The notes below the pieces were generated by a model, which ran no database searches, had not been told where the DNA came from, and worked only from the letters and a program-made list of their open reading frames with translations. A program made the position numbers and the translations under genes. Shown one piece after another: positions 43,404 through 63,950 of a stretch of 64,000 nucleotides of DNA (the first letter of the stretch is position 1; each line of letters starts with the position of its first letter). The stretch is from Rhizobium sp. NXC24 (GTDB lineage Bacteria; Pseudomonadota; Alphaproteobacteria; Rhizobiales; Rhizobiaceae). Location of the stretch: positions 372,001 through 436,000 of the forward strand of contig NZ_CP024313.1 of assembly GCF_002944315.1 (NCBI RefSeq). Reading direction: 5' to 3'.

Positions 43404-43415
43404 TCTTCGTTCTCC

Positions 43416-49074: not shown

Positions 49075-50019
49075 ATGCGAAACAGTAGCCAGTTGACTGC
49101 AAATATTGCGAAAGAGATCAGCCAACTGATCCGGTCCGGTGATTTGAAGCCAGACGATCACCTGAGCACTCAGGGCTTGGCTGACAAATTCGGAGTTTCG
49201 CGTTCCCCCGTCCGTGAGGCCATGCAGCTGCTCTTCGAACAGGGCTTCCTTGAGCAAAAGCCCAATCGCGGCTTTTTCGTATCGACGAAGGTGATCGATG
49301 AGGCCGTTGAGGCTCCGGGCGACCAATTGCAAGAGACGATGAGCGATTACCACCGCCTGGCGGAAGATTGGCTGACGGACCGCATTCCTGCCGATATCAC
49401 CGAACAAATGCTTCGAGACCGATATGGCTTCACGAAGGCGCAGGTCAGCGACATTCTGATGCGTGCTGCCAGAGAAGGATGGGCGGAACGAAAGCAGGGT
49501 TACGGCTGGCGGTTTCTGCCGGTCGCGAAAACGGCTGAAGCCTTCGAGCAGATTTACCGCTTCCGAATGCTTATCGAACCTGCCGCGATGCTCGAACCAA
49601 CATTCGCCTTGGACCGGAAGATCATCGATGAGCAACGTCGCATACAGTCCCGGATGCTCGAAACCGATATCCGTACGTTACCGGCCGAGAGGTTGCTCTA
49701 TAACGGGTCACTGTTTCATGAAGAGCTGATCAAGATGAGCGGCAATCCGTTCTTCCACCTGTCCTTGGTTCGAGTGAACCGGATGCGGCGCCTCCTGGAA
49801 TATCGCTCAAACGTCGACCGCGAACGATTGCACGTTCAGTGCGAGGATCATCTCGCAATCCTGTCCCTCCTCGAACGCGGTGAAATCGTCGAGGCCTCTT
49901 ACGCCATGCGCAGGCATCTTGGCGGAGCACTGACTCGAAAGTCGCCCTTGCTCTGGTCTCAAGAGGTTGCAGGAGTGAGGCAGGCTGAATATCTCAGTCC
50001 CGCCGCGGTCGAGAATTGA
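49075..50019 (+). CDS. GntR family transcriptional regulator with two winged HTH and FCD domain
   Basis: 314 residues; the start ATG has only a weak ribosome site (CCAGG). N-terminal GntR winged helix: SGDLKPDDHLSTQGLADKFG with SRSPVREAMQLLFEQGFLEQ. Residues ~95-150 look like a second winged helix of the same plan (TEQMLRDRYGFTKAQVSDIL then MRAAREGWAERKQGYGWRF). The rest is a helical FCD-type ligand domain (IYRFRMLIEPAAMLEPTFAL; HEELIKMSGNPFFHLSL; CEDHLAILSLLERGEIVEAS). FCD regulators often bind small carboxylates. It is convergent with the chemoreceptor gene and near the acid-sugar operon, its best candidate target. Confidence 0.85.
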   Translation: MRNSSQLTANIAKEISQLIRSGDLKPDDHLSTQGLADKFGVSRSPVREAMQLLFEQGFLEQKPNRGFFVSTKVIDEAVEAPGDQLQETMSDYHRLAEDWLTDRIPADITEQMLRDRYGFTKAQVSDILMRAAREGWAERKQGYGWRFLPVAKTAEAFEQIYRFRMLIEPAAMLEPTFALDRKIIDEQRRIQSRMLETDIRTLPAERLLYNGSLFHEELIKMSGNPFFHLSLVRVNRMRRLLEYRSNVDRERLHVQCEDHLAILSLLERGEIVEASYAMRRHLGGALTRKSPLLWSQEVAGVRQAEYLSPAAVEN

Positions 50020-50148: not shown

Positions 50149-51975
50149 TTACGCTGCTCGCGAGTAGGAAGCCGAGGTATGATTATCAGAAGAGATGATG
50201 AATTGCCGCAGGAGCTGATTTAGCGCGGCGATATCGCTGGCAAGGCCGTGGCTGGCGGCGGTCGATTCCTCGACCATCGCAGCGTTTCGTTGCGTCGCCT
50301 GATCGATTATTATGATCGCGCGATTGATCTCGTGCAAGCCGACGACTTGTTCTCGGGCGGCTGTGTTGATGGATTGTACCCGGTTGTTGATCTCTTCGAC
50401 GTGGCTGACAATTTCCTGTAGGGCTTTGCCCGTCCGTCCGACCAGATCGACACCGGATTTGACCTGCTCCCCAGAGGTCGTGATAAGCGATTTTATTTCC
50501 CTCGCCGCGTGTGCGGACCGCTGCGCCAATTCGCGGACCTCCTGTGCGACAACGGCGAACCCCTTGCCAGCTTCCCCGGCTCTCGCCGCTTCCACCCCTG
50601 CGTTCAGCGCAAGTAGGTTGGTCTGGAACGCGATATCGTCGATCACACCGATGATGTTGTTGATCTCGCCCGATGAGGTGGCAATGGCCTGCATCGCGCT
50701 GACAGCCTCGCCAACGACTGCACCCGATGTTTGAGCTGCCTGGTGCGCCTTTCGAACGAGGTCCTCTGCCTCTTGTGCTCGCAGCGTCGCATCGCGTGTC
50801 GTGGTCGTGATCTGCTCAAGAGCGGCTGCCGTCTCTTCGACAGAAGCGGCCTGCTGTTCCGTGCGCTGGGCAAGGTCATCGGCAGCAGAGCGGATCTCAG
50901 CTGCGCTTGCCGAGATGGAACGAGCATTAAGCGTGACGGCGCTCAGCGTGTTCTCCAGCTTTTCGACGCTTGCGTTGAAATCCTGCCGGATTCTGTCGAA
51001 GTTACCAGCAAAGGGCGTTGAGATTCGGTAGGTGACGTCGCCGGTCGCGAGCGCGTTGAGTGCAGTTGCCAGGGTATTTACGGCGAAGTCGGTCTCCGCA
51101 TCGTGTCTAGCCTTGTCGGCAGCACGGCTACGCTGGGCCTCTTCGTTTGCGCAATCCGTCGCCTGTGCCTCTTTCTCCAGTCTCAAGCGATGCATTGCAT
51201 TCTCCTTAAAGCTGATGACACTCTTTGCCATCTCGCCCACTTCGTCGCCGCGAGCCGCTTCTTCCACGTCAATGCTAAGGTCTCCTTCAGCAAGCCGCAT
51301 CATCTGCTGCCGCAGCCGCGCGATAGGCCTCAAGATTCCGAAAGACGCCAGTGCCGTTGACGCAGCGATTGCCAAAGCGATGGCGAGTGCTAGCAGAGTA
51401 GCGCTCTGGCGAATGGTAGAATGGTTCGCTTCCGAGAGGTCGCGAATGCCGTCCGCAACCTGCTTTTCCATTTTTTCATTCCACTCTCGAAGGCTCGTAG
51501 CCAGTTCGTCAATCTTCGGGTCAACAGCCCCGAGAACCGCCAAGGCGTTCATGTCGCGGTTGCCTTTGGCAGCAACAATGGCCTTATCGAGACCAACCTT
51601 TATCGCGGTGGCTTTTGCCAGAAACGCTTCCAGTTCCGGTTTTGCGTCCGGGTAAGCAGTAATTGCAGCATTGAGGCGGTCAAACATCCTCTGTGCGTTT
51701 TTGTCATAGCTGCTCGCCACATCGTCGAAATCTTTGGCGTCTGGCGAATAAGCGGTGAGCTGATAGGCACGATAAGCCACCGATTGCATATGGCGCGCGG
51801 CTGCCACCACATCAGTGTTTGCCATTCCCTCAGAGTTGACAAACCGAGTGTAGCGATCGTCTGCCTGCCGAAAGCGTAGCGACGTGTAAGCGAGGCTGCC
51901 GGCCGCGAGCACGCTGATACCGGCCGTGATTGCCAGAATTTTCAGCCCGATGCTGCTGTTCTTCAAGAATGACAT
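50149..51975 (-). CDS. Methyl-accepting chemotaxis protein
   Basis: 608 residues from the ATG at 51975, with GGAGGAG 6 nt upstream. Membrane helix about residues 10-30, a helical periplasmic domain to about 190 (RYTRFVNSEGMANTDVVAAA), second helix about 195-218, HAMP (RPIARLRQQMMRLAEGDLSI), and the signalling tip NIIGVIDDIAFQTNLLALNA. No C-terminal CheR-docking pentapeptide. It is divergent from the acid-sugar operon and shares a ~300-bp promoter region with it, so it may sense that operon's substrate. Confidence 0.93.
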   Translation of the reverse strand: MSFLKNSSIGLKILAITAGISVLAAGSLAYTSLRFRQADDRYTRFVNSEGMANTDVVAAARHMQSVAYRAYQLTAYSPDAKDFDDVASSYDKNAQRMFDRLNAAITAYPDAKPELEAFLAKATAIKVGLDKAIVAAKGNRDMNALAVLGAVDPKIDELATSLREWNEKMEKQVADGIRDLSEANHSTIRQSATLLALAIALAIAASTALASFGILRPIARLRQQMMRLAEGDLSIDVEEAARGDEVGEMAKSVISFKENAMHRLRLEKEAQATDCANEEAQRSRAADKARHDAETDFAVNTLATALNALATGDVTYRISTPFAGNFDRIRQDFNASVEKLENTLSAVTLNARSISASAAEIRSAADDLAQRTEQQAASVEETAAALEQITTTTRDATLRAQEAEDLVRKAHQAAQTSGAVVGEAVSAMQAIATSSGEINNIIGVIDDIAFQTNLLALNAGVEAARAGEAGKGFAVVAQEVRELAQRSAHAAREIKSLITTSGEQVKSGVDLVGRTGKALQEIVSHVEEINNRVQSINTAAREQVVGLHEINRAIIIIDQATQRNAAMVEESTAASHGLASDIAALNQLLRQFIISSDNHTSASYSRAA

Positions 51976-52274
51976 CAAAACTCCTCCGCTGGGGCAAATA
52001 TCTAGCAAATCTTGCATTTAGATATTTAAAAAACCAATAATGCATCTGTTTGTGTCGCCGTTCGCCAGCAGCGATTGGTTTTTCGAAGAAATCGAATCTC
52101 TTCGCAATCTCGTCCCGGGAAAAACGGTTCTCACCGCCCGCATTTGCGTCGAGGTCGTAGAAAATAATTGCTTTCTCCAAAACGTATTTGCATTTTGATG
52201 CGTAAAAAGCCAATATCAGGCCGTGGTGATGAGCGGCGGAAAAATGCTTTCGCCTTCTAGGGAGATTAGATCAC
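51976..52274. promoter_or_regulatory. Divergent promoter region of chemoreceptor and acid-sugar operon
   Basis: About 300 bp, AT-rich. It contains TTGCATTT at 52012-52019 (near the chemoreceptor) and TTGCATTT at 52188-52195 (80 bp before the operon's first gene). The operon's first ATG follows GGGAG by 11 nt. Confidence 0.5.
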
Positions 52275-53369
52275 ATGAAAATTTCGGTCACAGAGTGCGA
52301 CGGCATTGGCCCGGAAATCACTGCTGCAACGTTGGAAGTGCTGAAGGCCACCGATAAAGCCTTTGGTCTCGGGTTGGAGTATGAATTCGAAGATACTGGC
52401 TTCACGAGCTTGGAAAAATACGGCACCACCCTGCGCGATGAGGTTCTGGAGCGTGCTCGCAAGGCTGACGGTATCATCCTTGGTCCGCAGTCGCACATGG
52501 ACTACCCCGCACGCGACAAGGGCGGGGTGAACGTCTCCGCCGGTTACCGCGTCAAGCTTGATCTTTATGCAAACGTCCGCCCCGCTCGTTCGCGAACGTT
52601 CCTGAACAATTCGAAAACCATGGACCTCGTCATTATGCGCGAGGCGACCGAGGGCTTCTACCCGGACCGTAACATGGTCAAGGGGACCGGCGAATTCATG
52701 CCCACCGACGATGTCGCGCTCTCTGTTCGCAAGATCACGGCGAAGGCATGTGAGCGTATTGCTCGTCAGGCTTTCGTGCTCGCAATGAAGCGCGACAAGC
52801 GCGTAACCGCAGTCCATAAGGCAAACAACTTCATCCTGACCGACGGTCTGTTCCTGGAGCAGGTCCGAAAGGTTGCTCAGGACTTCCCTGAAGTGAAGGT
52901 CAACGATTTCATCATCGACGCTATGGCCGCACACCTCGTTCGCGATCCTTCGCGCTTCGACGTTATCGTGACCACGAACTTCTACGCTGACATCCTGTCG
53001 GATCTCGCCAGCGAACTTTCGGGCAGTCTTGGCCTTGCCGGCTCCATCAATGCCAATGCTGAACTTGGCCTTGTATGCGCCCAGGCGCAGCATGGTTCCG
53101 CCCCGGACATCCAGGGTCAGAATATTGCCAACCCGACGTCGCTCATTCTTTCCACAGCAATGATGCTCAGCTGGCTCGGCGAACAGCGGAAGCTTCCGCA
53201 TTTCGAAGCTGCAGGCGCGGAGATCGAGCGTGCCGTGGATGAAGTTCTCGCTGATCCGGCCAAGCGCACCCGCGATCTCGGCGGCAACACGAACACCGAC
53301 ACGTTCGGCAGGTTCGTCGCGCAGGCGGTGAACAACGGAGGTTCCGCCAAGAAGGTCGCCAACGCTTAG
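52275..53369 (+). CDS. Isocitrate/isopropylmalate dehydrogenase family (beta-decarboxylating) enzyme
   Basis: 364 residues. Family marks: MKISVTECDGIGPEITAATL start, LDLYANVRPARSR, VIMREATEGFYPDRN (catalytic Tyr), TAVHKANNFILTDGLF (catalytic Lys), DAMAAHLVRDPSRFDVIVTT with NFYADILSDLASELSGSLGL (metal-binding aspartates), and the C-terminal DLGGNTNTDTFGRFVAQAV. It oxidises a 2-hydroxy acid with a neighbouring carboxylate and usually loses CO2, using NAD(P). It heads the operon, 120 bp before the binding protein. Family relatives act on isopropylmalate, isocitrate, tartrate and 3-carboxy-hydroxy acids. Here it may supply or use the oxo-acid handled by the kinase and decarboxylase downstream. 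Confidence 0.88.
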   Translation: MKISVTECDGIGPEITAATLEVLKATDKAFGLGLEYEFEDTGFTSLEKYGTTLRDEVLERARKADGIILGPQSHMDYPARDKGGVNVSAGYRVKLDLYANVRPARSRTFLNNSKTMDLVIMREATEGFYPDRNMVKGTGEFMPTDDVALSVRKITAKACERIARQAFVLAMKRDKRVTAVHKANNFILTDGLFLEQVRKVAQDFPEVKVNDFIIDAMAAHLVRDPSRFDVIVTTNFYADILSDLASELSGSLGLAGSINANAELGLVCAQAQHGSAPDIQGQNIANPTSLILSTAMMLSWLGEQRKLPHFEAAGAEIERAVDEVLADPAKRTRDLGGNTNTDTFGRFVAQAVNNGGSAKKVANA

Positions 53370-53488
53370 CAGCAATTGGCTTTCTGGCCTCTGGCTGGCC
53401 AGTTTGGATTTCCCGGGGACGCACGGTGCGCCCTCGGGTTCGCCCGCCCGGAGGAGATTGCTCGGGCGCATCTTTGGGAGAAGAACAA

Positions 53489-54586
53489 ATGAACTCTTTT
53501 ATCGGCCCGAAAGGGCTCGCGACGGCTGCCGTGCTGTCCCTCCTCACTTCCGCAGCTTTCGCCCAGGAGGTCCCCGCCGGGTACCCGGCCGATTACAGCG
53601 CCATCATCGAAGCTGCCAAGAAGGAAGGCACCGTTTCAGTCTACACCTCGACCGACTCTGAACAGTCGCAGAAGCTTCAGGACGCATTTACGAAAAAGTA
53701 TGGCATCAAGATCGCTTACAACGACCTTGGTACCAACGGTGCATATAACCAGGTCATTTCAGAAGCTGCAGCAGGTCAAACCACGGCAGACGTGGTGTGG
53801 AGTTCCGCAATGGACCTGCAGATGACGCTCGTACAGGACGGCTACGCCGACGAGTACGCTTCCCCTGAAGCTGGCAAGCTCCCGAGCTGGGCAAACTACA
53901 AGAACGTGCTTTACGCAACGACGGTCGAGCCAATCGGCGTGATCTTCAACACCAAGGCACTGACGGAAGACAAGCTTCCGAAGACCTACGCCGATATGAT
54001 CACCTTCCTGAAGGACAACAAGTCCACACTTCAGGGCAAAGTTGCCACCTTCGATCCGGAAAAGAGCGGCTCGGGCTTCCTGCATCATTCTAACGATGCG
54101 CGCAACCGCAAGGACTTTTGGGACCTCGCCAAGGCAATGGGCGATGATGGTGCCAAGATCTACTCCAGCTCGGGCGGCATGAAGGAAACCGTGGTTTCCG
54201 GCGAGAACGTCATCGCGATCAACATCATCGGTTCCTATGCCCTTAAGTGGGCCAAGGAAAGCCCGAACCTCGGTGTTCACTTCGCCACCGATTACACGCC
54301 AGCCTTCTCCCGCCTTATCATGAAGACGAAGGAAGCTCCGCATCCGAATGCCGCGAAGCTCTTCATTGACTTCATGCTGTCCGCCGAAGGCCAGGCTCTC
54401 CTTTCTGAAAGCGGCCTGCCGTCGGTCCGCGAGGATGTCACTGCCGGTCTGAACATCAAGACCCTGAACGAGCGTGTCGGCGGTGGTTTGAAGCCAATCG
54501 CTGTGGACGAAGGCGTTCTTGAATACATGGATCAAATGAAGCGCGTCCAGTTTCTTAACGACTGGAAGGCCGCGCTCGGTCGCTAA
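53489..54586 (+). CDS. ABC transporter substrate-binding protein, family 1 (Fe3+/2-AEP type)
   Basis: 365 residues from the ATG at 53489, 9 nt after GGGAG. Signal peptide about residues 1-25 (LSLLTSAAFA). The mature part begins like family-1 binding proteins: YSAIIEAAKKEGTVSVYTST, TADVVWSSAMDLQMTLVQDG, and LPKTYADMITFLKDNKSTLQ. Relatives bind iron, 2-aminoethylphosphonate, thiamine or carboxylates; the metal tyrosines of iron-binding members are not evident, so an organic anion is more likely. A strong stem-loop follows its stop at 54595-54620. Confidence 0.9.
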   Translation: MNSFIGPKGLATAAVLSLLTSAAFAQEVPAGYPADYSAIIEAAKKEGTVSVYTSTDSEQSQKLQDAFTKKYGIKIAYNDLGTNGAYNQVISEAAAGQTTADVVWSSAMDLQMTLVQDGYADEYASPEAGKLPSWANYKNVLYATTVEPIGVIFNTKALTEDKLPKTYADMITFLKDNKSTLQGKVATFDPEKSGSGFLHHSNDARNRKDFWDLAKAMGDDGAKIYSSSGGMKETVVSGENVIAINIIGSYALKWAKESPNLGVHFATDYTPAFSRLIMKTKEAPHPNAAKLFIDFMLSAEGQALLSESGLPSVREDVTAGLNIKTLNERVGGGLKPIAVDEGVLEYMDQMKRVQFLNDWKAALGR

Positions 54587-54594
54587 TGCCCATC

Positions 54595-54620
54595 GGCTGC
54601 GGCGCGCTCGCGCCGCAGCC
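54595..54620 (+). repeat. 11-bp GC-rich stem-loop after binding-protein gene
   Basis: GGCTGCGGCGC (54595-54605) pairs with GCGCCGCAGCC (54610-54620), loop GCTC. No T-run. Placed between the binding protein and permease genes, it probably stabilises the binding-protein mRNA. Compare 10648-10715. Confidence 0.65.
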
Positions 54621-54644
54621 TCTCAGACCAGTTGAGAGGCAACA

Positions 54645-56411
54645 ATGTCTACACACGCACAGGCTCCGAGCGCACTTGCGGCCACCACAAAGTCAGCGCC
54701 AGCCGAGAAGAAATATCCGCCGAAAATGCCACGGGTGGGGAATGCTAACGCTTACCGCGTTGTCGTAATCACTCTCCTTGCCGTTGCCGTTCTCGCCCCT
54801 GTCGGCCTGATCGTGTATCAGAGCTTCCTCAGTGCACCGTTCTTCAGCGCTCGCGCCCGCTTTGGCTTCGATGCCTATCGCTATGTTTTCACGGACAAAG
54901 CCTTTTACCGGGCTCTGGGCACTACCGCCGTATTTTCGTTCGGCCTGGTCGCCATCGCCGTTCCTCTCGGCGGGGTGCTGGCTTTCCTGATCACTCGAAC
55001 GGACATTCGTTTCAAGCGCATACTTGAGATTCTGGTGCTCGTGCCAATGTTCATTTCGTCTATCGTTCTGGCGTTCGGCTACACCGTTTCGGTCGGTCCC
55101 GCAGGCTTTGTCTCGATCTTCATTCGTGATCTGATCGGCTTCGTCCCGTGGAATATCTACAGCCTCTCGGGGATGATCCTAATCGCGGGGCTCAGCCACG
55201 TTCCGAACGTCTATCTTTACGTATCGGCCGCAATGCGCAATTTGCCGTCGGACCTCGAAGAAGCCGCTCGCACGACTGGTGCATCGGTATGGCGCGTGTC
55301 CCGGGACGTAACTCTGCCAATGGTACTTCCGTCGCTGATCTTCGCGGTTGCCCTGAATATCCTGCTCGGCTTTGAGACCTTTGGCATTCCGCTCGTCCTG
55401 GGTGATCCGAACGGCATCATGGTCCTGACGACCTACATATACAAGCTCACCACCTTGTTCGGCACTCCGACCTACCAGCTGATGGCGGTTGTCGCCGTCG
55501 TCCTGGTGCTCATCACGCTGCCGCTCGTTGCGATCCAGCGCCGACTGCTGCGCAACGCCCGGCGTTATGCCGCTCTTGGTGGTAAGGGTGCCCGCGTTGC
55601 CACCCTTAAGCTCGGCACCAGTGGACAGGCCATCGCACTTGCCATCATCGGGCTGTGGCTGTTCATTTCGGTCGTCCTGCCTATCGGTGGGATCGTCGTC
55701 CGTGCGTTCGTCGATGCATGGGGCGAGGGCGTTAACCTTTTTGACCAGTTCACGCTGGCAAACTTCGCCCACTTGATGGACGTTCCGGCGCTTAAGAACG
55801 GCATCGTTAACACGATCCTTCTTTCGGTCGTCGGCGGCGCTCTTGCGGTGTTCATCTACCTGCTCGTTGGACTGGCTGGTCACCGCAACTGGGGCATGTC
55901 GAACACGGTTCTGGATTACATCGTCCTCCTGCCGCGAGCACTTCCAGGTCTCGTCGTCGGCCTGGCATTCTTCTGGGTCTTTCTGTTCGTGCCATTCCTG
56001 ACGCCGCTGCGTCCGACCCTCGTCAGCTTGTTCGTCGCCTACGTTGTCGTTGGCTTGTCCTATGGACTGCGTCTCCTTCAAGGCACGCTGCTGCAGGTCG
56101 CTCCTGAACTCGAAGAATCCGCTCGCACGACGGGTGCGACGATTGGCCGGACGTGGAAAGACGTCGTAATCCCCATCGTTCGTCCCGGCCTTGCAGGCGC
56201 GTGGGCTCTCATCATGATCATCTTCCTGCGTGAGTACGCGACAGGTGTTTATCTCATGGGCGCTGGCACCGAAGTCATCGGTTCGCTCATGGTTTCGCTG
56301 CTGCAGACCGGCGCGATGAATACCATTGCCGCACTTTCTCTCATCAGCATCGTCCTGACAGGTGCGGGCCTTGCCCTTGCCCTGCGACTTGGAGCAAAAA
56401 TCCATGACTGA
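54645..56411 (+). CDS. ABC transporter permease, fused double domain (Fe3+/2-AEP type)
   Basis: 588 residues with about twelve membrane helices in two halves. Each half has an EAA loop for the ATPase: DLEEAARTTGASVWRVSRDV near residue 200 and ELEESARTTGATIGRTWKDV near residue 495. This is the fused SfuB/AfuB type used by iron, phosphonate and similar importers. The ATPase gene starts inside its stop codon region, overlapping by 8 bp. Confidence 0.92.
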   Translation: MSTHAQAPSALAATTKSAPAEKKYPPKMPRVGNANAYRVVVITLLAVAVLAPVGLIVYQSFLSAPFFSARARFGFDAYRYVFTDKAFYRALGTTAVFSFGLVAIAVPLGGVLAFLITRTDIRFKRILEILVLVPMFISSIVLAFGYTVSVGPAGFVSIFIRDLIGFVPWNIYSLSGMILIAGLSHVPNVYLYVSAAMRNLPSDLEEAARTTGASVWRVSRDVTLPMVLPSLIFAVALNILLGFETFGIPLVLGDPNGIMVLTTYIYKLTTLFGTPTYQLMAVVAVVLVLITLPLVAIQRRLLRNARRYAALGGKGARVATLKLGTSGQAIALAIIGLWLFISVVLPIGGIVVRAFVDAWGEGVNLFDQFTLANFAHLMDVPALKNGIVNTILLSVVGGALAVFIYLLVGLAGHRNWGMSNTVLDYIVLLPRALPGLVVGLAFFWVFLFVPFLTPLRPTLVSLFVAYVVVGLSYGLRLLQGTLLQVAPELEESARTTGATIGRTWKDVVIPIVRPGLAGAWALIMIIFLREYATGVYLMGAGTEVIGSLMVSLLQTGAMNTIAALSLISIVLTGAGLALALRLGAKIHD

Positions 56412-57480
56412 ACTCGTTGTAAACAATGTCCAGAAATGGCTGGGCGGCCTGCAAATCCTCAAGGGTGCATCCTTTACCGCGGAGCGTGGAAGCATCGTTG
56501 CGCTCCTTGGAGCCTCTGGCAGTGGGAAAACCACCCTGCTTCGCTGCATCGCTGGTCTCGAACAGCCCGAGATCGGGACAATCGTAATTGGCGGGAAGAC
56601 TGTACTCGATGGCGAAAAGAAGCTAATTTTGCCGCCTGAACAGCGCAACATCGGCCTTGTGTTCCAGTCTTACGCGCTCTGGCCACACCGCACCGTCAAG
56701 GAAAACGTCGGTTATGGTCTGAAACTGCGCGGCATCAATCCGACCGAGATCGGCATCAGAGTTCAAGCGATCCTTGAGCGCCTCGGTCTCGGCCATCTCG
56801 CGGACCGGTATCCGTCGCAGTTGTCCGGCGGTCAGCAGCAGCGCGTCGCGATCTGCCGCGCCCTGGTCTACGAACCGCGCGTTCTTTTGCTTGACGAACC
56901 GCTGTCCAATCTGGACGCCAAGCTGCGCGAAGAGGCTCGCTACTGGATTCGTAAGCTGATCCTCGATCTGGAAATCTGTGCAATCCTGGTTACGCATGAC
57001 CAAAGCGAAGCCTTGGCTGCGGCCGACAACATTCTCCTGCTGCAGGACGGCCGTATCGTTCAGCAAGGCGGTCCGCAGGAGATTTACTCCAACCCGAACA
57101 GCTTCTATTCGGCGGACTTCCTGGGCGCTAACAACATCGTCAAAGGCAAGGTTCATACCGTCGATGGCAAGGCTGCCGTGATCGGCGGTGACGGCTGGAC
57201 GCTCAATGGAACGGTTCGCGAAATGTCAGGCCTTGGAGCGGCGCAGGATGCGCGAGCTGTCATTCGTGTCGAACAGATCAAGGTTGCCGATGCTCCTTTA
57301 AACGATGGTATCGAGATGGACCTTGATGACAGCATCTACCTTGGTGATCGTTGGGAATACCGGCTGCGGCGCGGTGATTTCGTGGCGAAGGCGCATGGAA
57401 CGAAACGGATGCCAACTGGAAAGGTGTGGGCCCAAATCCCGCCTGAAAGTGTCTGGCTGTTCTCCGGCGCGCAAAAGTAG
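56404..57480 (+). CDS. ABC transporter ATP-binding protein
   Basis: 358 residues from the ATG at 56404, overlapping the permease by 8 bp. Walker A LLGASGSGKTTLLRCIAG near residue 35, Q-loop LVFQSYALWPH, signature [15 protein letters not shown], Walker B VLLLDEPLSNLDAKL, switch His ILVTHDQSEALAAAD, then a C-terminal OB/TOBE-type domain from about residue 240 (GANNIVKGKVHTVDGKAAVI). CUT/iron-type importers have this layout. A stem-loop follows at 57491-57517 before the racemase-like gene. Confidence 0.92.
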   Translation: MTELVVNNVQKWLGGLQILKGASFTAERGSIVALLGASGSGKTTLLRCIAGLEQPEIGTIVIGGKTVLDGEKKLILPPEQRNIGLVFQSYALWPHRTVKENVGYGLKLRGINPTEIGIRVQAILERLGLGHLADRYPSQLSGGQQQRVAICRALVYEPRVLLLDEPLSNLDAKLREEARYWIRKLILDLEICAILVTHDQSEALAAADNILLLQDGRIVQQGGPQEIYSNPNSFYSADFLGANNIVKGKVHTVDGKAAVIGGDGWTLNGTVREMSGLGAAQDARAVIRVEQIKVADAPLNDGIEMDLDDSIYLGDRWEYRLRRGDFVAKAHGTKRMPTGKVWAQIPPESVWLFSGAQK

Positions 57481-57490
57481 GCCACCTCGG

Positions 57491-57517
57491 GCGGCCGCCC
57501 TCCTCCCGGGCGGCCGC
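57491..57517 (+). repeat. 10-bp GC-rich stem-loop after ATPase gene
   Basis: GCGGCCGCCC (57491-57500) pairs with GGGCGGCCGC (57508-57517), loop TCCTCCC. No T-run; 30 bp before the next start codon. It may separate transport from enzyme expression. Confidence 0.6.
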
Positions 57518-57547
57518 TGACTTCATAGTTCAGATCAGAGGTCAAAA

Positions 57548-58204
57548 ATGTCCGCCCCCCGTATTGCCCTGATCCACGCGACGCCCGTCGCGATGGAGCC
57601 GATCAAGGCCTCCTTTGCCTCCGCCTGGCCGGAAGCGGAAACTGTCAATCTTCTTGAAGATAGCCTTTCACCGGATCGAGCCAAGACTGATGAAATCACG
57701 CCGGAGTTGGCGGAACGGATATTCAGTCTCGCAGAATATGCCTTGAAAGCGAAATGCGATGCTGTCCTCTTTACCTGTTCAGCTTTCGGTACCGCAGTTG
57801 AGGCGGCCGCCGCCAAGCTTCCCATTCCGGTTCTGAAGCCCAACCAAGCAATGTTTGAAGCAGCTATCAACCAAGGCGGTCGAACGGCGATGCTCTACAC
57901 GTTTCCTCCAGCTCGCGAGGGCATGGAGGAGGAATTTCACGAAGAGGCAAAGCGGCTGAACCCTGAGGCAAGTATTCAAAGTTTTCTTGTCGAGGGGGCA
58001 ATCGAGGCTGTGAGAAGCGGCGATGCCGAGACCCACAACCGTCTTGTGAAGGAAGCAGCCGCGTCTCTCCGTGACTTCGACGCAATCATGCTTGCGCACT
58101 TTTCAACCGCTCGCGCTCTTTCGCCAGTCCGCGAAGTCACCTCTATCCCAGTTTTCAGCAGCCCAGACGCTGCGGTCGTGAAGTTGAAGAAGTTGCTCCG
58201 GTAG
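57548..58204 (+). CDS. Asp/Glu racemase-like protein with one catalytic cysteine
   Basis: 218 residues. The Asp/Glu racemase family fold is seen: PRIALIHATPVAMEPIKASF start, AVLFTCSAFGTAVEAAAAKL with Cys77, PIPVLKPNQAMFEAAINQG, and DAIMLAHFSTARALSPVREV. Two-base racemases carry a second cysteine where this has His184-Phe-Ser, so a standard racemase mechanism is unlikely. One-cysteine members include arylmalonate decarboxylase and maleate isomerase-like enzymes, which act on malonates or maleate. It sits in the operon 67 bp after the ATPase gene. Confidence 0.78.
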   Translation: MSAPRIALIHATPVAMEPIKASFASAWPEAETVNLLEDSLSPDRAKTDEITPELAERIFSLAEYALKAKCDAVLFTCSAFGTAVEAAAAKLPIPVLKPNQAMFEAAINQGGRTAMLYTFPPAREGMEEEFHEEAKRLNPEASIQSFLVEGAIEAVRSGDAETHNRLVKEAAASLRDFDAIMLAHFSTARALSPVREVTSIPVFSSPDAAVVKLKKLLR

Positions 58205-58240
58205 GGCAACGCGAGCGGAAAAATAGGAGGAGTAACGCAT

Positions 58241-59173
58241 ATGCAATTGACGAGACGGGATTTCATGGTGGGCGCCCTTGGAGCTGCTGCCGTTGCTTGT
58301 TCAACGGCTGCAAATAGCGCCGACACGATTCCTTATTCATCCGGGGACAACAATCCGAAGTTCAAAGCGCCTGCTCATACATGCGACGCCCATTTCCATA
58401 TCTATGACAATCGTTTTCCGGCTGCGCCAAACGCAAGCCTGATACCGCCGAATGCCCTTATTGCAGATTATGAAAAGCTCCGCTCTCGATTGGGATTCGA
58501 GCGCAGCGTGATTGTGCAGCCGTCGACATACGGGACCGACAACTCCTGCCTGCTGGAATCCCTTAAAATTCTGGGATCGCGTGGCCGAGGGATTGCCGTC
58601 GTCGATACATCGGTAACCGATGAGCAGCTCAAGGAATTGAACGCCGCTGGGATACGGGGCATCCGTTTCAATCTAGGAAGGGCTGGTGCAACGACGGTCG
58701 AGATGATCGAGCCGCTGTCCAAGCGGGTTGCCGACCTCGGCTGGCATATCCAGGTTCACATGTCCGGCAACGACATAGCCAAGAATGCCGATCTGTTCGC
58801 ACGTCTTCCCTTGACCGTCGTCTTTGATCACCTTGGGCGAATTCCCCAGCCCGATGGCATCAAGCACCCGGCATTTGCCGTGATCAGCGCTCTGCTCGAA
58901 CAGGGAAAGGCCTACACGAAGCTATCAAGCATCTACCAAGACACGGTTGTCGGGCCACCGACATACGAAGACATGGGAGCGGTCGCACGGGCTTACCTTA
59001 AGATTGCGCCCGAGCGGGTGCTGTGGGGGTCCGATTGGCCCCATCCTTCTCCTGGAAAATTCGGCAAGCCCAACGATGCGACGCTGATGGATCTTTGCGC
59101 GGAGTGGGCGGGCGATGACGGGACCCGCCAGAAGATTTTTGCTGATAATGCGGCCACGCTTTACGGCTTTTGA
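58241..59173 (+). CDS. Amidohydrolase-family lactonase-like protein with Tat signal
   Basis: 310 residues, ATG after GGAGGAG. The first 30 residues are a Tat signal (LTRRDFMVGALGAAAVACST), so the protein goes to the periplasm folded. The core resembles the PDC hydrolase / galactarolactone isomerase branch of the amidohydrolases: HTCDAHFHIYDNRFP start, GIRGIRFNLGRAG, WHIQVHMSGND, TVVFDHLGRIP and VLWGSDWPHPS. These usually hydrolyse or isomerise lactones. A periplasmic lactonase would open a lactone before the importer takes up the acid. Confidence 0.82.
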   Translation: MQLTRRDFMVGALGAAAVACSTAANSADTIPYSSGDNNPKFKAPAHTCDAHFHIYDNRFPAAPNASLIPPNALIADYEKLRSRLGFERSVIVQPSTYGTDNSCLLESLKILGSRGRGIAVVDTSVTDEQLKELNAAGIRGIRFNLGRAGATTVEMIEPLSKRVADLGWHIQVHMSGNDIAKNADLFARLPLTVVFDHLGRIPQPDGIKHPAFAVISALLEQGKAYTKLSSIYQDTVVGPPTYEDMGAVARAYLKIAPERVLWGSDWPHPSPGKFGKPNDATLMDLCAEWAGDDGTRQKIFADNAATLYGF

Positions 59174-59196
59174 AGATCGCGGGAAGGAAGTGCACA

Positions 59197-60465
59197 ATGT
59201 TACTCGGGGTAATCGCAGACGACTTCACGGGCGCAAGCGACATAGCAAATACTATCGCCAAAGGCTTGCCTTCCCACGGAGGTCTAAGAACGGCGCAATT
59301 CCTGGGGGTACCTTCAGCAGCTGCTCCGCAAGAGGTCGAAGCTGGCGTTGTAGCCTTGAAGAGCAGGTCCATTCCGGTAGCTAACGCCGTCCAACAATCG
59401 CTTGCCGCCTTAAACTGGCTGCTTGCACAGGGATGTCAGCAGATCGTGTTCAAATACTGCTCGACATTCGATTCAACGAAAGAGGGCAACATTGGTCCGG
59501 TTGGTGAAGCACTCGCGGAGGCGCTAGGCGCTAGAGGTGTCGTCGTTTGCCCTGCATTCCCCGGAGCGGGTCGTACCGTCTACATGGGACATCTGTTTGT
59601 CAATGACCGTCCGCTCAATGAGTCTGGCATGCAAAACCACCCGCTGACTCCAATGACGGATTCCGACATTCGGCGTTGGCTCGGCTATCAGACGAAGACC
59701 CCGGTTGGTCTGGTGCCTACCCCAGTGGTCAGGCAAGGCGAAGCTGCGATAAAAGAAGCGCTCGCTAACGCTGAAGGCACCATGGTCATCGTCGACGCCA
59801 CATCGGACGACGAGTTGGCGATCATCGGCGCCGCAATTGCCGACCATAAGTTGGTGACCGGAGGCTCCGGCATCGCAATCGGCCTGCCCGCCAACTTCAT
59901 TCGACGCGGATTGGCGAAAGGATCCCACGGCAACTCCATCGGTACGACGGGGCCGGAAGCCATTCTTGCCGGAAGCTGCTCTGGCGCGACCCGGGGCCAG
60001 ATTGACCTTCATAAGGCGAGCCATCCGACGCTGCCTATTGATGTAGACAAGGTCATGAGCGGTGAGACGACTGCCGACGATATCGTCAAGTTCATCCAGG
60101 CAAATCACGGAAAAGCACCACTTGCCTACTCTTCCGGAACTCCTGAAGACGTTCGCCGGATGCAGGATAAGTACGGCCGCGATGAAGTCGCACATAAGCT
60201 TGACGGGTTATTCGCCGAGACTGCGCAGAAACTCGTGGCTGCTGGTGTAACCAGATTGGTGGTCGCAGGCGGCGAGACCTCGGGAGCCGTAGTCTCCGCC
60301 CTTGATCTTGGTGCGCTCACCATCGGCCAGGAAATTGACCCTGGCGTACCAGTCCTCTTGTCGCTCGGTGACAAGCCGATAGCTCTCGCGCTGAAGTCTG
60401 GAAACTTCGGTGCGCAGGATTTCTTCACGAAAGCATTGAACAGGCTGACATCACATGAGCAATGA
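59197..60465 (+). CDS. otnK: Four-carbon acid sugar kinase (OtnK family, DUF1537)
   Basis: 422 residues from the ATG at 59197, preceded by GGGAAGGAAG. The N-terminal domain begins MLLGVIADDFTGASDIANTI, the OtnK signature, with KYCSTFDSTKEGNIGPVGEA later in it. The C-terminal nucleotide domain has VTRLVVAGGETSGAVVSAL and GVPVLLSLGDKPIALALKSG. This family phosphorylates four-carbon sugar acids such as 3-oxo-tetronate, threonate and erythronate (established for its members). It overlaps the next gene, an OtnC-type aldolase, by 11 bp, the typical pairing. Confidence 0.9.
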   Translation: MLLGVIADDFTGASDIANTIAKGLPSHGGLRTAQFLGVPSAAAPQEVEAGVVALKSRSIPVANAVQQSLAALNWLLAQGCQQIVFKYCSTFDSTKEGNIGPVGEALAEALGARGVVVCPAFPGAGRTVYMGHLFVNDRPLNESGMQNHPLTPMTDSDIRRWLGYQTKTPVGLVPTPVVRQGEAAIKEALANAEGTMVIVDATSDDELAIIGAAIADHKLVTGGSGIAIGLPANFIRRGLAKGSHGNSIGTTGPEAILAGSCSGATRGQIDLHKASHPTLPIDVDKVMSGETTADDIVKFIQANHGKAPLAYSSGTPEDVRRMQDKYGRDEVAHKLDGLFAETAQKLVAAGVTRLVVAGGETSGAVVSALDLGALTIGQEIDPGVPVLLSLGDKPIALALKSGNFGAQDFFTKALNRLTSHEQ

Positions 60466-61093
60466 ATCGACGGTTCGCGAGGAAATCGTGCGCCTGTCAC
60501 GGTCGCTTTTCGAACGAGGGTACTCAGTCGGTACAGCGGGAAACATCAGTGCCGCCGTCGATGACGGCATCCTCATGACACCAACGAATTCATCATTGGG
60601 TTTTCTTGATCCCGCTCGGATCAGCAAGCTTAGCCGAGATGGTCGGCATCTTTCCGGGGATAAGCCTTCCAAGGAAATATTCCTCCATCACGCATTCTAT
60701 GAGACACGACCGCAGACCGGGGCCGTTGTGCATCTGCATTCGACCTTCGCGACCGCTCTCTCATGCCTGACAGATATCGATCCGGACGACTGCATTCCTC
60801 CGGTGACCCCTTACGTGGTGATGCGGGTTGGCCAGGTGAAACTCGTTCGTTATGTGCGACCGGGGGACGAGAAGGCCGGTGATCTGATCCGTGAACTAAA
60901 AGGACGTTATGCGGCAGTCTTATTGGCAAACCATGGACCCGTGGTGACCGGCAAGGATATCGGATCAGCTGTCTATGCGGCAGAAGAACTTGAGGAGACG
61001 TCAAAGCTTCTCGTGCTCCTACGTGGCGCACCAACGCGGATGCTGACCGAAGAAAACGTGGCCGAGTTGAGAGCTGTATTCGGCGCATACTGA
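60455..61093 (+). CDS. otnC: Class II aldolase, OtnC-type oxo-tetronate phosphate decarboxylase
   Basis: 212 residues. Class II aldolase fold: GTAGNISAAVDDGILMTPTN, PSKEIFLHHAFYETRPQTGA with a catalytic Glu, zinc ligands in VVHLHSTFATAL (His93, His95), and a third His in LLANHGPVVTGKD. Kinase-linked members decarboxylate 3-oxo-tetronate 4-phosphate to dihydroxyacetone phosphate. The 11-bp overlap with otnK and the tpiA gene that follows fit this. Confidence 0.9.
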   Translation: MSNESTVREEIVRLSRSLFERGYSVGTAGNISAAVDDGILMTPTNSSLGFLDPARISKLSRDGRHLSGDKPSKEIFLHHAFYETRPQTGAVVHLHSTFATALSCLTDIDPDDCIPPVTPYVVMRVGQVKLVRYVRPGDEKAGDLIRELKGRYAAVLLANHGPVVTGKDIGSAVYAAEELEETSKLLVLLRGAPTRMLTEENVAELRAVFGAY

Positions 61094-61126
61094 GAAAAGT
61101 CAGCAACTTGTACGACAGGAGAAGCG

Positions 61127-61894
61127 ATGACCGGTCCCTATCTCATCGCAGGCAATTGGAAAATGAATGGCCTGAACAGCTCCTTGGCTGTTCTTGAAGA
61201 GACAGCCCGCTCTTGTGAGCGCATGGACGGTGACGTCGAAGTCGTCATGTTTTTGCCTGCAACGCTGCTGGCAGTCTCATCGATTGTGATCAAGGACACG
61301 AAACTGCAGTTGGGCGGCCAGGACTGTAGCTCTGAAAGATCGGGAGCGTTCACCGGCGAGATATCTGCCGAAATGTTGAAAGACGCGGGAGCAAGATTCG
61401 TCATGATTGGCCACTCGGAGCGCCGTCTGCGTCACGCTGAGGGTGACGATCTGGTTCGCCAAAAGGCGATTCAGGCGATAGAGGTCGGTCTCACGGCCCT
61501 CATCTGCATCGGCGAAAGCGGTCAGGAAAAGGCAGAAGGCAAAACCCTCGCGGTTCTGTCTAGCCAACTGACCTATTCCGTTCCGCGCGTTTCCTCTATC
61601 GACCAGATCGTTATCGCCTATGAACCGACGTGGGTTACCGGAACCTGTGTCACTCCGACCCTGGATGAAATCGCTCACGTGCACCGGCATATCCGGTCAG
61701 AGCTTCTGGCGCATTGGGGCGACAGTGGCCAGCAAATTCGTATCCTTTATGGAGGGTCAGTCCAGCCATCGAATGCAGCGGAGATTCTAGCAATCGCTGA
61801 AGTGGGCGGACTGCTGGTAGGTGGCGCAAGCCTCGATGCAAAACAGTTCTCAGCTATATGCGAGCACGGTCGGTCTGTAAGAGCCGCAGCATGA
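61127..61894 (+). CDS. tpiA: Triose-phosphate isomerase
   Basis: 255 residues. Catalytic residues are all visible: Lys12 in GNWKMNG, His96 in MIGHSERR, Glu166 in AYEPTWVTGT, and the phosphate-binding loop ILYGGSVQPSNA. It converts dihydroxyacetone phosphate to glyceraldehyde 3-phosphate. In this operon it would feed the OtnC product into glycolysis. Probably an operon-specific second copy, as cells also need a housekeeping one (inference). Confidence 0.93.
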   Translation: MTGPYLIAGNWKMNGLNSSLAVLEETARSCERMDGDVEVVMFLPATLLAVSSIVIKDTKLQLGGQDCSSERSGAFTGEISAEMLKDAGARFVMIGHSERRLRHAEGDDLVRQKAIQAIEVGLTALICIGESGQEKAEGKTLAVLSSQLTYSVPRVSSIDQIVIAYEPTWVTGTCVTPTLDEIAHVHRHIRSELLAHWGDSGQQIRILYGGSVQPSNAAEILAIAEVGGLLVGGASLDAKQFSAICEHGRSVRAAA

Positions 61895-61953
61895 CCAGGG
61901 ACATCACCTCGCAGTCTCATGTCTTACAGTCAAGCAAGCCCAGGGAGGCAAAC

Positions 61954-63327
61954 GTGCTCACCTCGATCAATCCAGCGACCGGAAAAGAGATTGCAACCTA
62001 TGAGTTGCATACCGATGAATACATAGACGCCGCGCTGACTGCGGCCGATAATGCTCAGCGAAAATGGCGTGAGGTTCCGATCAGCGAACGTGTAGGCCTC
62101 CTGACGCGAATGGCGGCTGTCCTTCGCCAAGGCAAGTCGACATATGCCAAGATGATCACCCGCGAAATGGGCAAGCCTATCGCGGAGGCAGAGGCTGAAA
62201 TCGAAAAATGTGCGTACAATTGCGAATTCTATGCTGAGCACGCCGTGCAGTATCTTGCCGACGAGCCTGTCGCCTCCAATGCCACCGAGAGCGTAGTGGC
62301 GTTTGCTCCGTTGGGTGTGGTCCTTGCGATTATGCCCTGGAACTATCCGTTTTGGCAGTTCTTCCGCTTCGCGGCACCGGCGCTAGCTGCGGGCAATGGC
62401 GCGATCCTCAAACACGCCAACAACGTTCCGGAGTGCGCACTCGCCGTTGAGGACATCATGCGGAAGGCAGGTTGCCTGGACGGCCTATTCGGGACCCTCC
62501 TCATCGATGCGTCAAAGGTCGCCGGATTGATAGCCGATGACCGGATTGCCGCCGTCACGCTCACGGGATCCACCGAGGTTGGTGCCATCGTTGCCGGGCA
62601 AGCGGGCAAGGCCCTGAAGAAACAGGTTCTGGAGCTTGGCGGTTCGGATCCTTTTATTGTGCTTGCCGACGCAGATCTGGAGCAAGCTGCCGCCGTGGCC
62701 GTCAAGGCCCGCTATATCAACGTTGGTCAGTCGTGTGTGAATGCAAAGCGCTTCATCGTCGAGGAGCCGGTGGCAGAGCGCTTCGTTGAGCTGTTCTGCG
62801 AAGGCGTCGCCAAGCTCAAGATCGGCGATCCCACCGAGCGCGACACGAACATCGGTCCAATGGCGCGAGCAAACCTGCTTGCGGCTCTTCATGCGCAAGT
62901 CGAGAAGACCGTTGCTGCCGGGGCTACCGTCCGTGCAGGGGGTAAACCCATTGAAGGCGATGGCTTCTACTATCCTCCGACCGTTCTCGACAATGTCTCG
63001 CCAGATATGGTGGCGTTCTGCGAGGAAACCTTCGGCCCTGTCGCCGCTATTATCCGAGCCAAGGACGCCGACGAAGCCATTCGGCTGGCCAATCAGACGG
63101 AGTTTGGTCTCGGTTCTGCCCTTTGGTCACGCGACACCGAAAGGGCAAAGCAGCTTGCTCGCAAAATCGAGGCCGGAGCAGTTTTCATCAATGGAATGGT
63201 GGCATCGGACCCCCGTTACCCCTTTGGGGGCATCAAGCGGTCGGGATACGGCCGTGAGCTTGGTCTCTACGGCATCCGGGAATTCGTGAACATCAAAACG
63301 GTCTGGGTCGGCCCGACTAAAGCCTAA
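61954..63327 (+). CDS. NAD-dependent aldehyde dehydrogenase (succinate-semialdehyde type)
   Basis: 457 residues from the GTG at 61954, 5 nt after a strong GGGAGG; the family start LTSINPATGKEIATYEL fits. An ATG at 61891 overlapping the tpiA stop (ATGA) is the alternative. Features: VLAIMPWNYPFWQFFRFAAP, cofactor region VTLTGSTEVGAIVAGQAGKA, catalytic Glu in LELGGSDPFIV, catalytic Cys in NVGQSCVNAKRFIV, and a closing YPFGGIKRSGYGRELGLYG. Oxidises an aldehyde intermediate, such as a semialdehyde or glyceraldehyde-like product. Which one is not clear. Confidence 0.88.
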   Translation: MLTSINPATGKEIATYELHTDEYIDAALTAADNAQRKWREVPISERVGLLTRMAAVLRQGKSTYAKMITREMGKPIAEAEAEIEKCAYNCEFYAEHAVQYLADEPVASNATESVVAFAPLGVVLAIMPWNYPFWQFFRFAAPALAAGNGAILKHANNVPECALAVEDIMRKAGCLDGLFGTLLIDASKVAGLIADDRIAAVTLTGSTEVGAIVAGQAGKALKKQVLELGGSDPFIVLADADLEQAAAVAVKARYINVGQSCVNAKRFIVEEPVAERFVELFCEGVAKLKIGDPTERDTNIGPMARANLLAALHAQVEKTVAAGATVRAGGKPIEGDGFYYPPTVLDNVSPDMVAFCEETFGPVAAIIRAKDADEAIRLANQTEFGLGSALWSRDTERAKQLARKIEAGAVFINGMVASDPRYPFGGIKRSGYGRELGLYGIREFVNIKTVWVGPTKA

Positions 63328-63342
63328 GCAGGAGGAAACGAG

Positions 63343-63759
63343 ATGGCTGAGGCGGCGATACTTCGTCCAAAAGAACTGAAGACAAATGACCGTGGCGGCG
63401 GAGCGAAGACTACGCCGTTGGTCACCCGCAAGTGCGGCTCGACGAGCATGATCAATGGCATCACGGCTTTCGATCCAGGCGCTTCGATTGGGCTCCACAA
63501 GCATAATTGTGAGGAAAGCGTGATGATCCTCGATGGTGAAGCCATAGCAGAAATCAACGGCGTCCAGCACCGGCTTGCAGCGAACGACACCACATGGATT
63601 CCCGCCAACGTCCCACACCGCTTCATCAACGCCTCGGATAGCCAGCCGATGCGCATTTTCTGGATATACGCTTCGATTGATGCGACTCGCACGATGTTGG
63701 CCACCGGAGAGGAAAGGGCAATCGATGCCGAGCATGGTCACTCCGGTGGGGCCGCCTGA
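63343..63759 (+). CDS. Cupin domain protein
   Basis: 138 residues, ATG after AGGAGGAAAC. The single cupin barrel shows metal-ligand residues IGLHKHNCEESVMILDGEA (His-His-Glu) and a second histidine in ANVPHRFINASDS. Small cupins near sugar-acid genes are often isomerases, mutarotases or regulators of flux; no named family stands out. The next frame starts inside its stop codon (TGATG). Confidence 0.82.
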   Translation: MAEAAILRPKELKTNDRGGGAKTTPLVTRKCGSTSMINGITAFDPGASIGLHKHNCEESVMILDGEAIAEINGVQHRLAANDTTWIPANVPHRFINASDSQPMRIFWIYASIDATRTMLATGEERAIDAEHGHSGGAA

Positions 63760-63950
63760 TGTTTATCGAAGTTGCCGCAAATTACGGTCTGGATCGTCAA
63801 ACCCGCCAGTTGAGGGCGGCGTCTCGAAAGCTGCGCCTTTATTCCTCCGCGCGTGAGGGTGTCACGGGCTCGCCTTCAGCCTCGGGATCTCGTCAGCAAA
63901 TTGGCCGCCTGCGTTTCAGCCCCACCCCGGAATACGAGCTCGATGGCTAA
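63759..63950 (+). CDS. Short frame at operon end, uncertain
   Basis: 63 codons, ATG overlapping the cupin TGA. Sequence MFIEVAANYGLDRQTRQLRA then a Ser/Arg-rich stretch; no family seen. It may be a real small gene, a frameshifted piece, or chance. A second frame opens at 63943 and leaves the window. Confidence 0.25.
   Translation: MFIEVAANYGLDRQTRQLRAASRKLRLYSSAREGVTGSPSASGSRQQIGRLRFSPTPEYELDG

Follow-up and report, generated by a model that had tools for sequence, protein, structure and literature searches.

The locus and its genes

The window analysed here is a stretch of 64,000 nucleotides from Rhizobium sp. NXC24 (contig NZ_CP024313.1). Its positions 50149..63950, the region under study, hold a chemoreceptor gene and, on the opposite strand, eleven consecutive genes that include OtnK and OtnC of the tetronate route. 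Tentatively, and with slightly less than even confidence, we read the eleven genes as a plasmid catabolic operon that feeds the tetronate route from a hydroxy acid with several carboxylates. Families were named by comparing Pfam and NCBIfam profile scores with the curated cut-offs. L-numbers denote compared loci and G-numbers compared genomes, G000 being the genome of the window (7.3 Mb, four contigs). Rac is used for the one-Cys protein of the Asp/Glu-racemase fold. The genes of the run are:

52275..53369, + strand: beta-decarboxylating dehydrogenase of the isopropylmalate dehydrogenase (IPMDH)/isocitrate type, divergent subfamily (PF00180, 280.3 bits, cut-off 27)
53489..54586, + strand: ABC importer, solute-binding protein (PF13416; start as in Rhizobium sp. 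CB3060)
54645..56411, + strand: ABC importer, fused double permease (two PF00528 stretches)
56404..57480, + strand: ABC importer, ATPase (PF00005; start as in CB3060)
57548..58204, + strand: Rac, one-Cys Asp/Glu-racemase-fold protein (PF01177, 60.7 bits, cut-off 31)
58241..59173, + strand: amidohydrolase-2 protein with a twin-arginine translocation (Tat)-type N-terminus, possible lactonase (PF04909, 171.8 bits)
59197..60465, + strand: OtnK, predicted 3-oxo-tetronate kinase (NF043035, 537.3 bits, cut-off 350; start as in CB3060)
60455..61093, + strand: OtnC, 3-oxo-tetronate 4-phosphate decarboxylase (NF043034, 319.4 bits, cut-off 250)
61127..61894, + strand: TpiA, triose-phosphate isomerase (TIGR00419, 146.2 bits, cut-off 130.6)
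61954..63327, + strand: aldehyde dehydrogenase (PF00171; start as in CB3060)
63343..63759, + strand: cupin, last gene of the run (PF07883)

All genes named in the preliminary description of this DNA were confirmed in the sequence, in the order given there. The tight operon it described also holds: between 52275 and 63759 the eleven genes share one strand with intergenic gaps of -11 to 119 bases, four gene starts being adopted from the CB3060 annotation for these figures. The next gene 3' of the cupin lies on the opposite strand. Terminator-like sites are not in excess (17 against a mean of 16.3 in shuffled sequence) and promoter-like sites are fewer than in shuffled sequence (3 against 6.6). 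As judged from the sequence, the operon is likely to form one transcript. An Rfam search of the window for RNA elements gave no match.

Plasmid pCB3060_2 of Rhizobium sp. CB3060 carries the whole operon stretch (100% of its length) at 98.7% identity, and the operon is therefore plasmid-borne at least in that strain. The plasmid is typed as conjugative, and its record names otnK, otnC and tpiA. Within the genus the operon is accessory, Rac being found at 69-77% identity in three of 24 genomes searched (G002, G007, G019).

Lower pathway and a second OtnK operon

Since OtnK and OtnC exceed their curated cut-offs, the lower half is taken to be the known tetronate route, from 3-oxo-tetronate to dihydroxyacetone phosphate (DHAP) and then through TpiA. 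TpiA passes TIGR00419, and its scores with the remaining models for triose-phosphate isomerase stay under their cut-offs. These scores bear out the lower pathway proposed in the preliminary description; the 3-oxo-tetronate kinase activity of OtnK is predicted from family membership.

The classical route for L-threonate and D-erythronate uses LtnD or DenD, OtnI, OtnK and OtnC. Queries for LtnD, OtnI, the DRL-type oxidoreductase, the flavin mononucleotide (FMN)-dependent 2-hydroxyacid oxidase, Ldh2 and an AcnA-type aconitase (AcnA2) had no match in the whole 64 kb at an E value of 1e-5. The LtnD query, run with tblastn, was the LtnD of the same genome (NF043037, 448.3 bits, cut-off 350), and four OtnI-type queries were used, one of them over the NF043033 cut-off (370.7 against 325 bits). 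No DenD-like gene was seen among Pfam matches of the scanned operon genes; no DenD query was made. The front end is thus unlike that of the classical route, as had been suspected, LtnD and OtnI being without a match in the window.

Besides the OtnK of the window, the genome holds three more members of the kinase superfamily. One of them (G000:C4:1932716) lies in a classical set of LacI-type regulator, transporter, LtnD, OtnI, OtnK and OtnC, in which LtnD and OtnI reach the scores just given. Because this classical operon exists elsewhere in the genome, that of the window is a second, different OtnK operon.

The dehydrogenase

The first enzyme of the operon belongs to the beta-decarboxylating dehydrogenase superfamily by its PF00180 score and its catalytic Arg/Tyr/Lys/Asp set. 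It falls below the cut-offs of all 18 NCBIfam models matched, the best being TIGR02088 (275.9 against 409.8 bits), with the tartrate dehydrogenase model at 214.2 against 470.4 bits; none of the functions isopropylmalate, homoisocitrate, isocitrate or tartrate dehydrogenase is assigned by NCBIfam. Among solved sequences, homoisocitrate and isocitrate dehydrogenases score best. Residues R92, R102, R122, Y129, K182, D215 and D239 are invariant across the 23 readable rows of the alignment, in which the badly extracted row of L054 was treated as a gap; D243 is kept in 20 of 23, with Asn in L047, L072 and L089. We take these eight to be the equivalents of R94, R104, R132, Y139, K185, D217, D241 and D245 of the Thermus thermophilus IPMDH. 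The dehydrogenases of L047, L072 and L089 (48-50% identity) and of L044 (36%) may differ in function. A conserved loop, PDRNM, specific to these dehydrogenases follows the catalytic Tyr, and Asn86 and Ser88 presumably lie at the site of the substrate substituent, according to our own mapping of motifs.

As the classical oxidants have no match in the window and the aldehyde dehydrogenase is the only other oxidoreductase of the operon, this enzyme is the obvious entry oxidant. A second, distant IPMDH-type subfamily, 34-36% identical to the enzyme of the window, lies near OtnK/OtnC in L117, L119 and L134, which suggests that the coupling of such dehydrogenases to OtnK arose or persisted more than once. 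Clustering showed further neighbours shared among these three loci, without family names.

Rac

Rac belongs to the Asp/Glu/hydantoin racemase superfamily by its PF01177 score and by fold; the NCBIfam scan of Rac gave no match. Its AlphaFold model, made with 30 sequences, has the racemase fold at a mean predicted local distance difference test (pLDDT) score of 93.2. The fold neighbours are led by glutamate racemases, followed by aspartate, hydantoin and allantoin racemases and arylmalonate decarboxylase. Of 75 aligned rows, 74 have Cys77 and one has a gap there, and His163 is invariant in the 73 readable rows. At His184, which by our own mapping (position after the equivalent strand) we take to be the place of the second catalytic Cys of two-Cys racemases, 60 of the 73 rows have His and 13 have Gln. 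Rac is accordingly not a two-Cys amino-acid racemase: Cys77 stands alone, the mapped second site is occupied by His or Gln, and the Gln speaks against a strict two-base racemase in the rows concerned. The CB3060 annotation starts Rac 45 bases further in, yet conserved residues precede that point.

The name racemase is a guess at the level of the modelled fold. We propose that Rac acts as an oxo-tetronate racemase or isomerase. It would act at the shared oxo-tetronate node, because its partner OtnK stays constant while the neighbouring oxidising enzyme changes.

A simple replacement of OtnI by Rac was considered and rejected. OtnI exceeds its cut-off in 17 of the 23 genomes with Rac beside OtnK, an OtnI-like gene lies near Rac in 23 of 73 loci, and an Ensifer operon holds both. 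In three of those 23 genomes (G367, G372, G378) no OtnI hit exceeds 95 bits.

Distribution and neighbourhoods

A scan of an 84,980-species collection gave 73 Rac loci; the relatives were found with six short peptide patterns, which biases the set to close kin. L024 and L025 represent the genomes and region of L034 and L035, and the counts omit L027-L031 (Rac at 25-30%). Since the gene calls were rough (several wrong-strand frames), neighbours within 9.5 kb of Rac were counted by tblastn with chosen queries. Among the 73 loci, OtnK was found in 23, OtnC in 25, the IPMDH-type dehydrogenase in 22 (one at 36%, L044, and three near 50%), the FMN oxidase in 23, an OtnI-like gene in 23, the DRL-type oxidoreductase in 8, Ldh2 in 8 and LtnD in 2. 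Rac thus lies beside at least three different oxidising enzymes, and its most frequent arrangement with OtnK is Rac-OtnK-OtnC.

Plasmids of Rhizobium, Sinorhizobium, Ensifer, Agrobacterium and Shinella share a core set made up of GntR regulator, divergent IPMDH-type dehydrogenase, ABC importer, Rac and OtnK, in most cases also OtnC. Parts of it are combined with different transporters in, among others, Halomonas, Vibrio and Ancylobacter. An ABC, TTT or TRAP importer was matched in 19 of the 22 IPMDH loci, the others being L044, L079 and L104. The import-and-degrade operon put forward earlier is supported. The most compact set surrounds the Rac of L080 and L082 (Billgrantia, Halomonas), with aconitase, a solute-binding protein of the SBP_bac_3 type (SBP3), a membrane protein named AbrB-like by look, Rac, IPMDH-type dehydrogenase, TTT transporter, GntR, OtnK and OtnC.

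Rac goes with OtnK even where the two are unlinked, because OtnK exceeds its cut-off in 24 of 26 genomes chosen for a Rac without adjoining OtnK, a sample of mixed classes, against 36 of 318 sampled genomes in an alphaproteobacterial background. Excluding G362, which also holds L036 with Rac beside OtnK, the count is 23 of 25. The sample covers 27 of the 50 loci that have no OtnK close by, and the two genomes without OtnK are metagenome-assembled.

The remaining contexts differ in their oxidising enzyme. In eight loci (L045, L053, L059, L061, L065, L083, L084, L091) the DRL-type oxidoreductase lies beside Rac-OtnK-OtnC and a GntP or TTT transporter; the protein of L083 was tested with PF21135 and SAF. 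The DRL-type protein presumably resembles the oxidoisomerase of the D-apionate/3-oxo-isoapionate pathway, and may be a tetronate oxidoisomerase acting in one step. In Methylobacterium, loci such as L052 combine Rac and an OtnI-like gene with an FMN oxidase and a LacI-type regulator, and OtnK exceeds its cut-off elsewhere in all eight Methylobacterium genomes sampled. The Ldh2 context is kept apart because OtnK adjoins Rac in none of seven loci and His184 is replaced by Gln in all seven. On a quick Rac tree with several weak forks, the four labelled contexts need five changes, where the minimum is three.

Flanking genes and regulation

The features 5' of the operon are:

47378..48145, - strand: trans-aconitate 2-methyltransferase, tam-like (NF002463, 362.3 bits, cut-off 297; named tam in CB3060)
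48239..48985, + strand: SBP3-type solute-binding protein, no signal peptide evident by eye (PF00497)
49075..50019, + strand: GntR-FCD regulator (PF00392, PF07729)
50149..51975, - strand: methyl-accepting chemotaxis protein, lineage-specific (PF00015, PF00672; start as in CB3060)
52188..52216, + strand: promoter-like stretch TTGCAT-N17-CAATAT, 58 bases 5' of the first gene (from an alignment of six Rhizobium upstream regions)

In L026, L032-L035, L041 and the six plasmid loci L154-L159, a GntR-FCD gene precedes the dehydrogenase. The copy at 49075-50019, which lies beyond the edge of the region under study, is likely the regulator of the operon. The promoter-like stretch is kept in five of the six Rhizobium regions (CAATAA in L026) and resembles what we take to be rhizobial promoters; the promoter scan did not call it.

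The chemoreceptor sits between GntR and the dehydrogenase in the window, L032 and L154, and is 95% identical in CB3060 and 86% in R. mongolense (L032). It was not found in L033, L034, L035, L026 or L155-L159 in the flanks examined. The sensing part of the preliminary description is therefore not supported: the chemoreceptor is specific to the lineage of the window, CB3060 and L032, and was rejected as a general part of the system.

Further upstream, two adjoining genes (42666-44966, - strand) resemble an IS21-type transposase pair (IstA/IstB) by look, and an efflux outer-membrane gene lies between this pair and the Tam gene.

Importer, amidohydrolase and last genes

The ABC importer had been described as three-part. 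Binding protein, permease and ATPase are all present, with the correction that the permease is a single fused gene with two transport domains. The best solved sequences for the binding protein are 7f6s/7f6e and 3c9h.

Of the lactonase-like Tat amidohydrolase, the family and the Tat-type start stand, and lactonase activity may be guessed from the fold. Its sole NCBIfam match, NF042924 (4-sulfomuconolactone hydrolase), falls short (168.6 against 500 bits). Eleven solved sequences were matched up to an E value of 10: strong matches to 4mup (presumably galactarolactone isomerase), 2-pyrone-4,6-dicarboxylate hydrolase (four rows) and 4i6k, then 6uvz (4.5e-6) and four at 0.7-1.8, with 4mup and the 2-pyrone-4,6-dicarboxylate hydrolase best. 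A fuconolactonase-like assignment is unsupported, since we recognised none of the eleven as a fuconolactonase. The twin-arginine start is shared by the window protein and five of nine other rows, each of these five belonging to Rhizobium or the same genus. The family lies directly beside the IPMDH-type gene in L054, L062 and L079 and farther away in L041 (36%). It was seen in none of the 23 FMN-oxidase loci and none of the 8 DRL loci, and was not found in four of the five plasmid loci L155-L159 in the flanks examined.

The aldehyde dehydrogenase is below the cut-offs of the best 25 of 43 NCBIfam models; as a succinate-semialdehyde dehydrogenase it reaches 576.3 against 730 bits with the best model.

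Aconitase and methyltransferase neighbours

AcnA2 was found in 8 of 23 IPMDH loci (the 22 and L026) against none of 51 other Rac loci in the flanks examined; the matches in L090 and L092 are at the 45-47% of an ordinary AcnA. It also precedes this cluster in the L032 and L033 genomes (L146, L147) and lies near the operon in four of six plasmid loci. The genome of the window has an 87% orthologue on another contig, in a module of GntR, propeller lactonase-like gene, transporter and aconitase (L145, G000:C4:1810000-1829900); in L034 and L035 such a module directly follows the operon on its 3' side. Tam lies near SBP3/GntR in L033-L035 and L146 and 3' of OtnC in L041. An SBP3-type protein is also found in L032-L035 and L041, with divergent copies in L080, L082, L092 and L104. 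The pair of Tam and signal-less SBP3 thus recurs near the operon in several relatives, Tam being at most a candidate member of the pathway.

Because the decarboxylating residues are kept, homoisocitrate and isocitrate dehydrogenases are the best matches, and aconitase and Tam are neighbours, the substrate is perhaps not a plain C4 sugar acid but a hydroxylated acid with two or three carboxylates. The C4 (or related) sugar acid of the preliminary description is weakened to that extent.

Proposed pathway and alternatives

Our reading is based directly on the families to which OtnK, OtnC and TpiA belong, on the conserved gene set and on the catalytic residues of the dehydrogenase; from them we infer the order of steps, the substrate class and the role of Rac. 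The ABC importer would take up a hydroxylated acid that bears at least two carboxylates, and in Rhizobium the exported amidohydrolase would perhaps open a lactone of the substrate before uptake. The IPMDH-like enzyme would oxidise the acid with NAD, probably with loss of one CO2, giving an oxo-tetronate. Rac would shift or invert the centre adjoining the ketone, so that all material reaches the form accepted by OtnK. OtnK would then phosphorylate the oxo-tetronate, OtnC decarboxylate it to DHAP and TpiA convert this to glyceraldehyde 3-phosphate. As a guess, the simplest single substrate would be a C5 aldarate, which yields 3-oxo-tetronate directly when C3 is oxidised and one carboxylate is lost. 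This guess leaves the aconitase unexplained, and the facts do not yet fit together.

Several observations weigh against this scheme. Aconitase and trans-aconitate methyltransferase genes are neighbours of several of these operons, and no aconitase-type product leading to 3-oxo-tetronate can be drawn; the aldehyde dehydrogenase and the cupin find no place in it, and a pentarate is without the malate moiety normally bound by the dehydrogenase family. Among the 36 alphaproteobacterial OtnK loci, Rac was found in one (L111, 42%); 11 have an OtnI-like gene and 24 have neither in the DNA seen, some of it short contigs, so OtnK loci in general need neither OtnI nor Rac. OtnC was not found in L026 and L155. 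As a side observation, an RraA-family gene over the NF006875 cut-off follows OtnK or OtnC in L026 (11625-12098), L156 (11578-12066) and L157 (11582-12067), and in L026 it occupies the place of the missing OtnC; RraA-like proteins can be oxaloacetate decarboxylases or aldolases. Finally, the Ensifer operon L156 includes an OtnI/hydroxypyruvate-isomerase-like gene (205.6 and 207 bits, under both cut-offs), which weakly favours a 2-oxo over a 3-oxo product.

That last gene suits a plain tetronate operon, in which erythronate or threonate is imported, the IPMDH-like enzyme replaces LtnD or DenD without decarboxylation, and Rac or OtnI yields 3-oxo-tetronate. OtnK and OtnC are as in the known route, in 23 of 73 loci Rac has an FMN oxidase nearby, an enzyme that would produce a 2-oxo acid, and tartrate dehydrogenase, of the same family as IPMDH, oxidises L-tartrate without loss of CO2. 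We consider this unlikely, if still a serious contender, as the dehydrogenase keeps its dicarboxylate-binding residues, the aconitase and methyltransferase neighbours are unaccounted for, and a classical operon, its LtnD and OtnI over cut-off, already exists in the genome. Those neighbours would be explained by a citrate-like substrate, with AcnA2 and the IPMDH-like enzyme as an isomerase/decarboxylating-dehydrogenase pair, as for isocitrate, isopropylmalate and homoisocitrate, and OtnK/OtnC processing the product or another part of the molecule. The distribution of AcnA2 described above, its 87% orthologue, the Tam over cut-off and a PrpF-like gene (under cut-off) near Rac in L090 agree with it. 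We rate it lower still, as distinctly unlikely: the AcnA2 of the genome is on a different contig with GntR, lactonase-like and transporter genes of its own, homologues at 61-68% occur in G362, G363 and G370, whose Rac lies in other contexts, 13 of 23 IPMDH loci are without AcnA2 in the DNA seen (L146 and L147 counted as finds), and no product for OtnK can be drawn. Rac might also be a decarboxylase of the arylmalonate-decarboxylase type, acting on a geminal diacid before oxidation. The one-Cys active site fits, and arylmalonate decarboxylase is a fold neighbour (2vlb, TM score 0.70; the Gly74Cys/Cys188Ser mutant 3ixl is also listed). Glutamate racemases are better by E value, the sequence profile is closest to hydantoin racemase (E value 0.00021, against 0.77 for arylmalonate decarboxylase), and no geminal diacid substrate is known here, which makes this idea very improbable.

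We retain a new pathway as possible rather than probable. Its substrate would be a hydroxylated di- or tricarboxylic acid from plants or fungi, converted to an oxo-tetronate by an isocitrate/isopropylmalate-type dehydrogenase that in some relatives has an aconitase as partner. A new one-Cys racemase-fold enzyme, acting as an oxo-tetronate racemase or isomerase, would connect OtnK/OtnC with this front end and with two or more other oxidising ones. If true, it would be a new entry to the tetronate pathway and would predict a hydroxy acid consumed by rhizobia. It would also give a function to a racemase-fold family unnamed by NCBIfam and spread over many Proteobacteria and a few others. Rac offers a handle on the substrate, OtnK being present in nearly every checked genome with Rac.

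Comparison with known systems

The lower half of the operon is known, whereas the dehydrogenase, Rac and the amidohydrolase reach no NCBIfam cut-off and bear generic names only in the CB3060 record. The L-threonate/D-erythronate pathway was reportedly described in the DUF1537 work of Zhang et al. in 2016. With this classical route the operon shares OtnK and OtnC over cut-off and DHAP as the end; it differs in having the IPMDH-like enzyme, Rac and the amidohydrolase in place of LtnD and OtnI. The route with D-threonate kinase and PdxA2 likewise combines the kinase superfamily with a decarboxylating dehydrogenase, but the kinase of the window scores 135.4 against a cut-off of 450 bits for that kinase, and a separate decarboxylase is present. 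With OiaK of the D-apionate/3-oxo-isoapionate pathway the kinase superfamily is shared, but the kinase of the window scores 135.2 against a cut-off of 700 bits for the OiaK model. The dehydrogenase has the family and catalytic residues of the isopropylmalate, homoisocitrate, isocitrate and tartrate dehydrogenases, and is set apart from them by its scores under all NCBIfam cut-offs, the PDRNM loop and Asn86/Ser88. Rac, in turn, shares the fold and the N-lobe Cys with the Asp/Glu/hydantoin racemases and arylmalonate decarboxylase, and differs from them in the mapped position of the C-lobe Cys, where it carries His or Gln.

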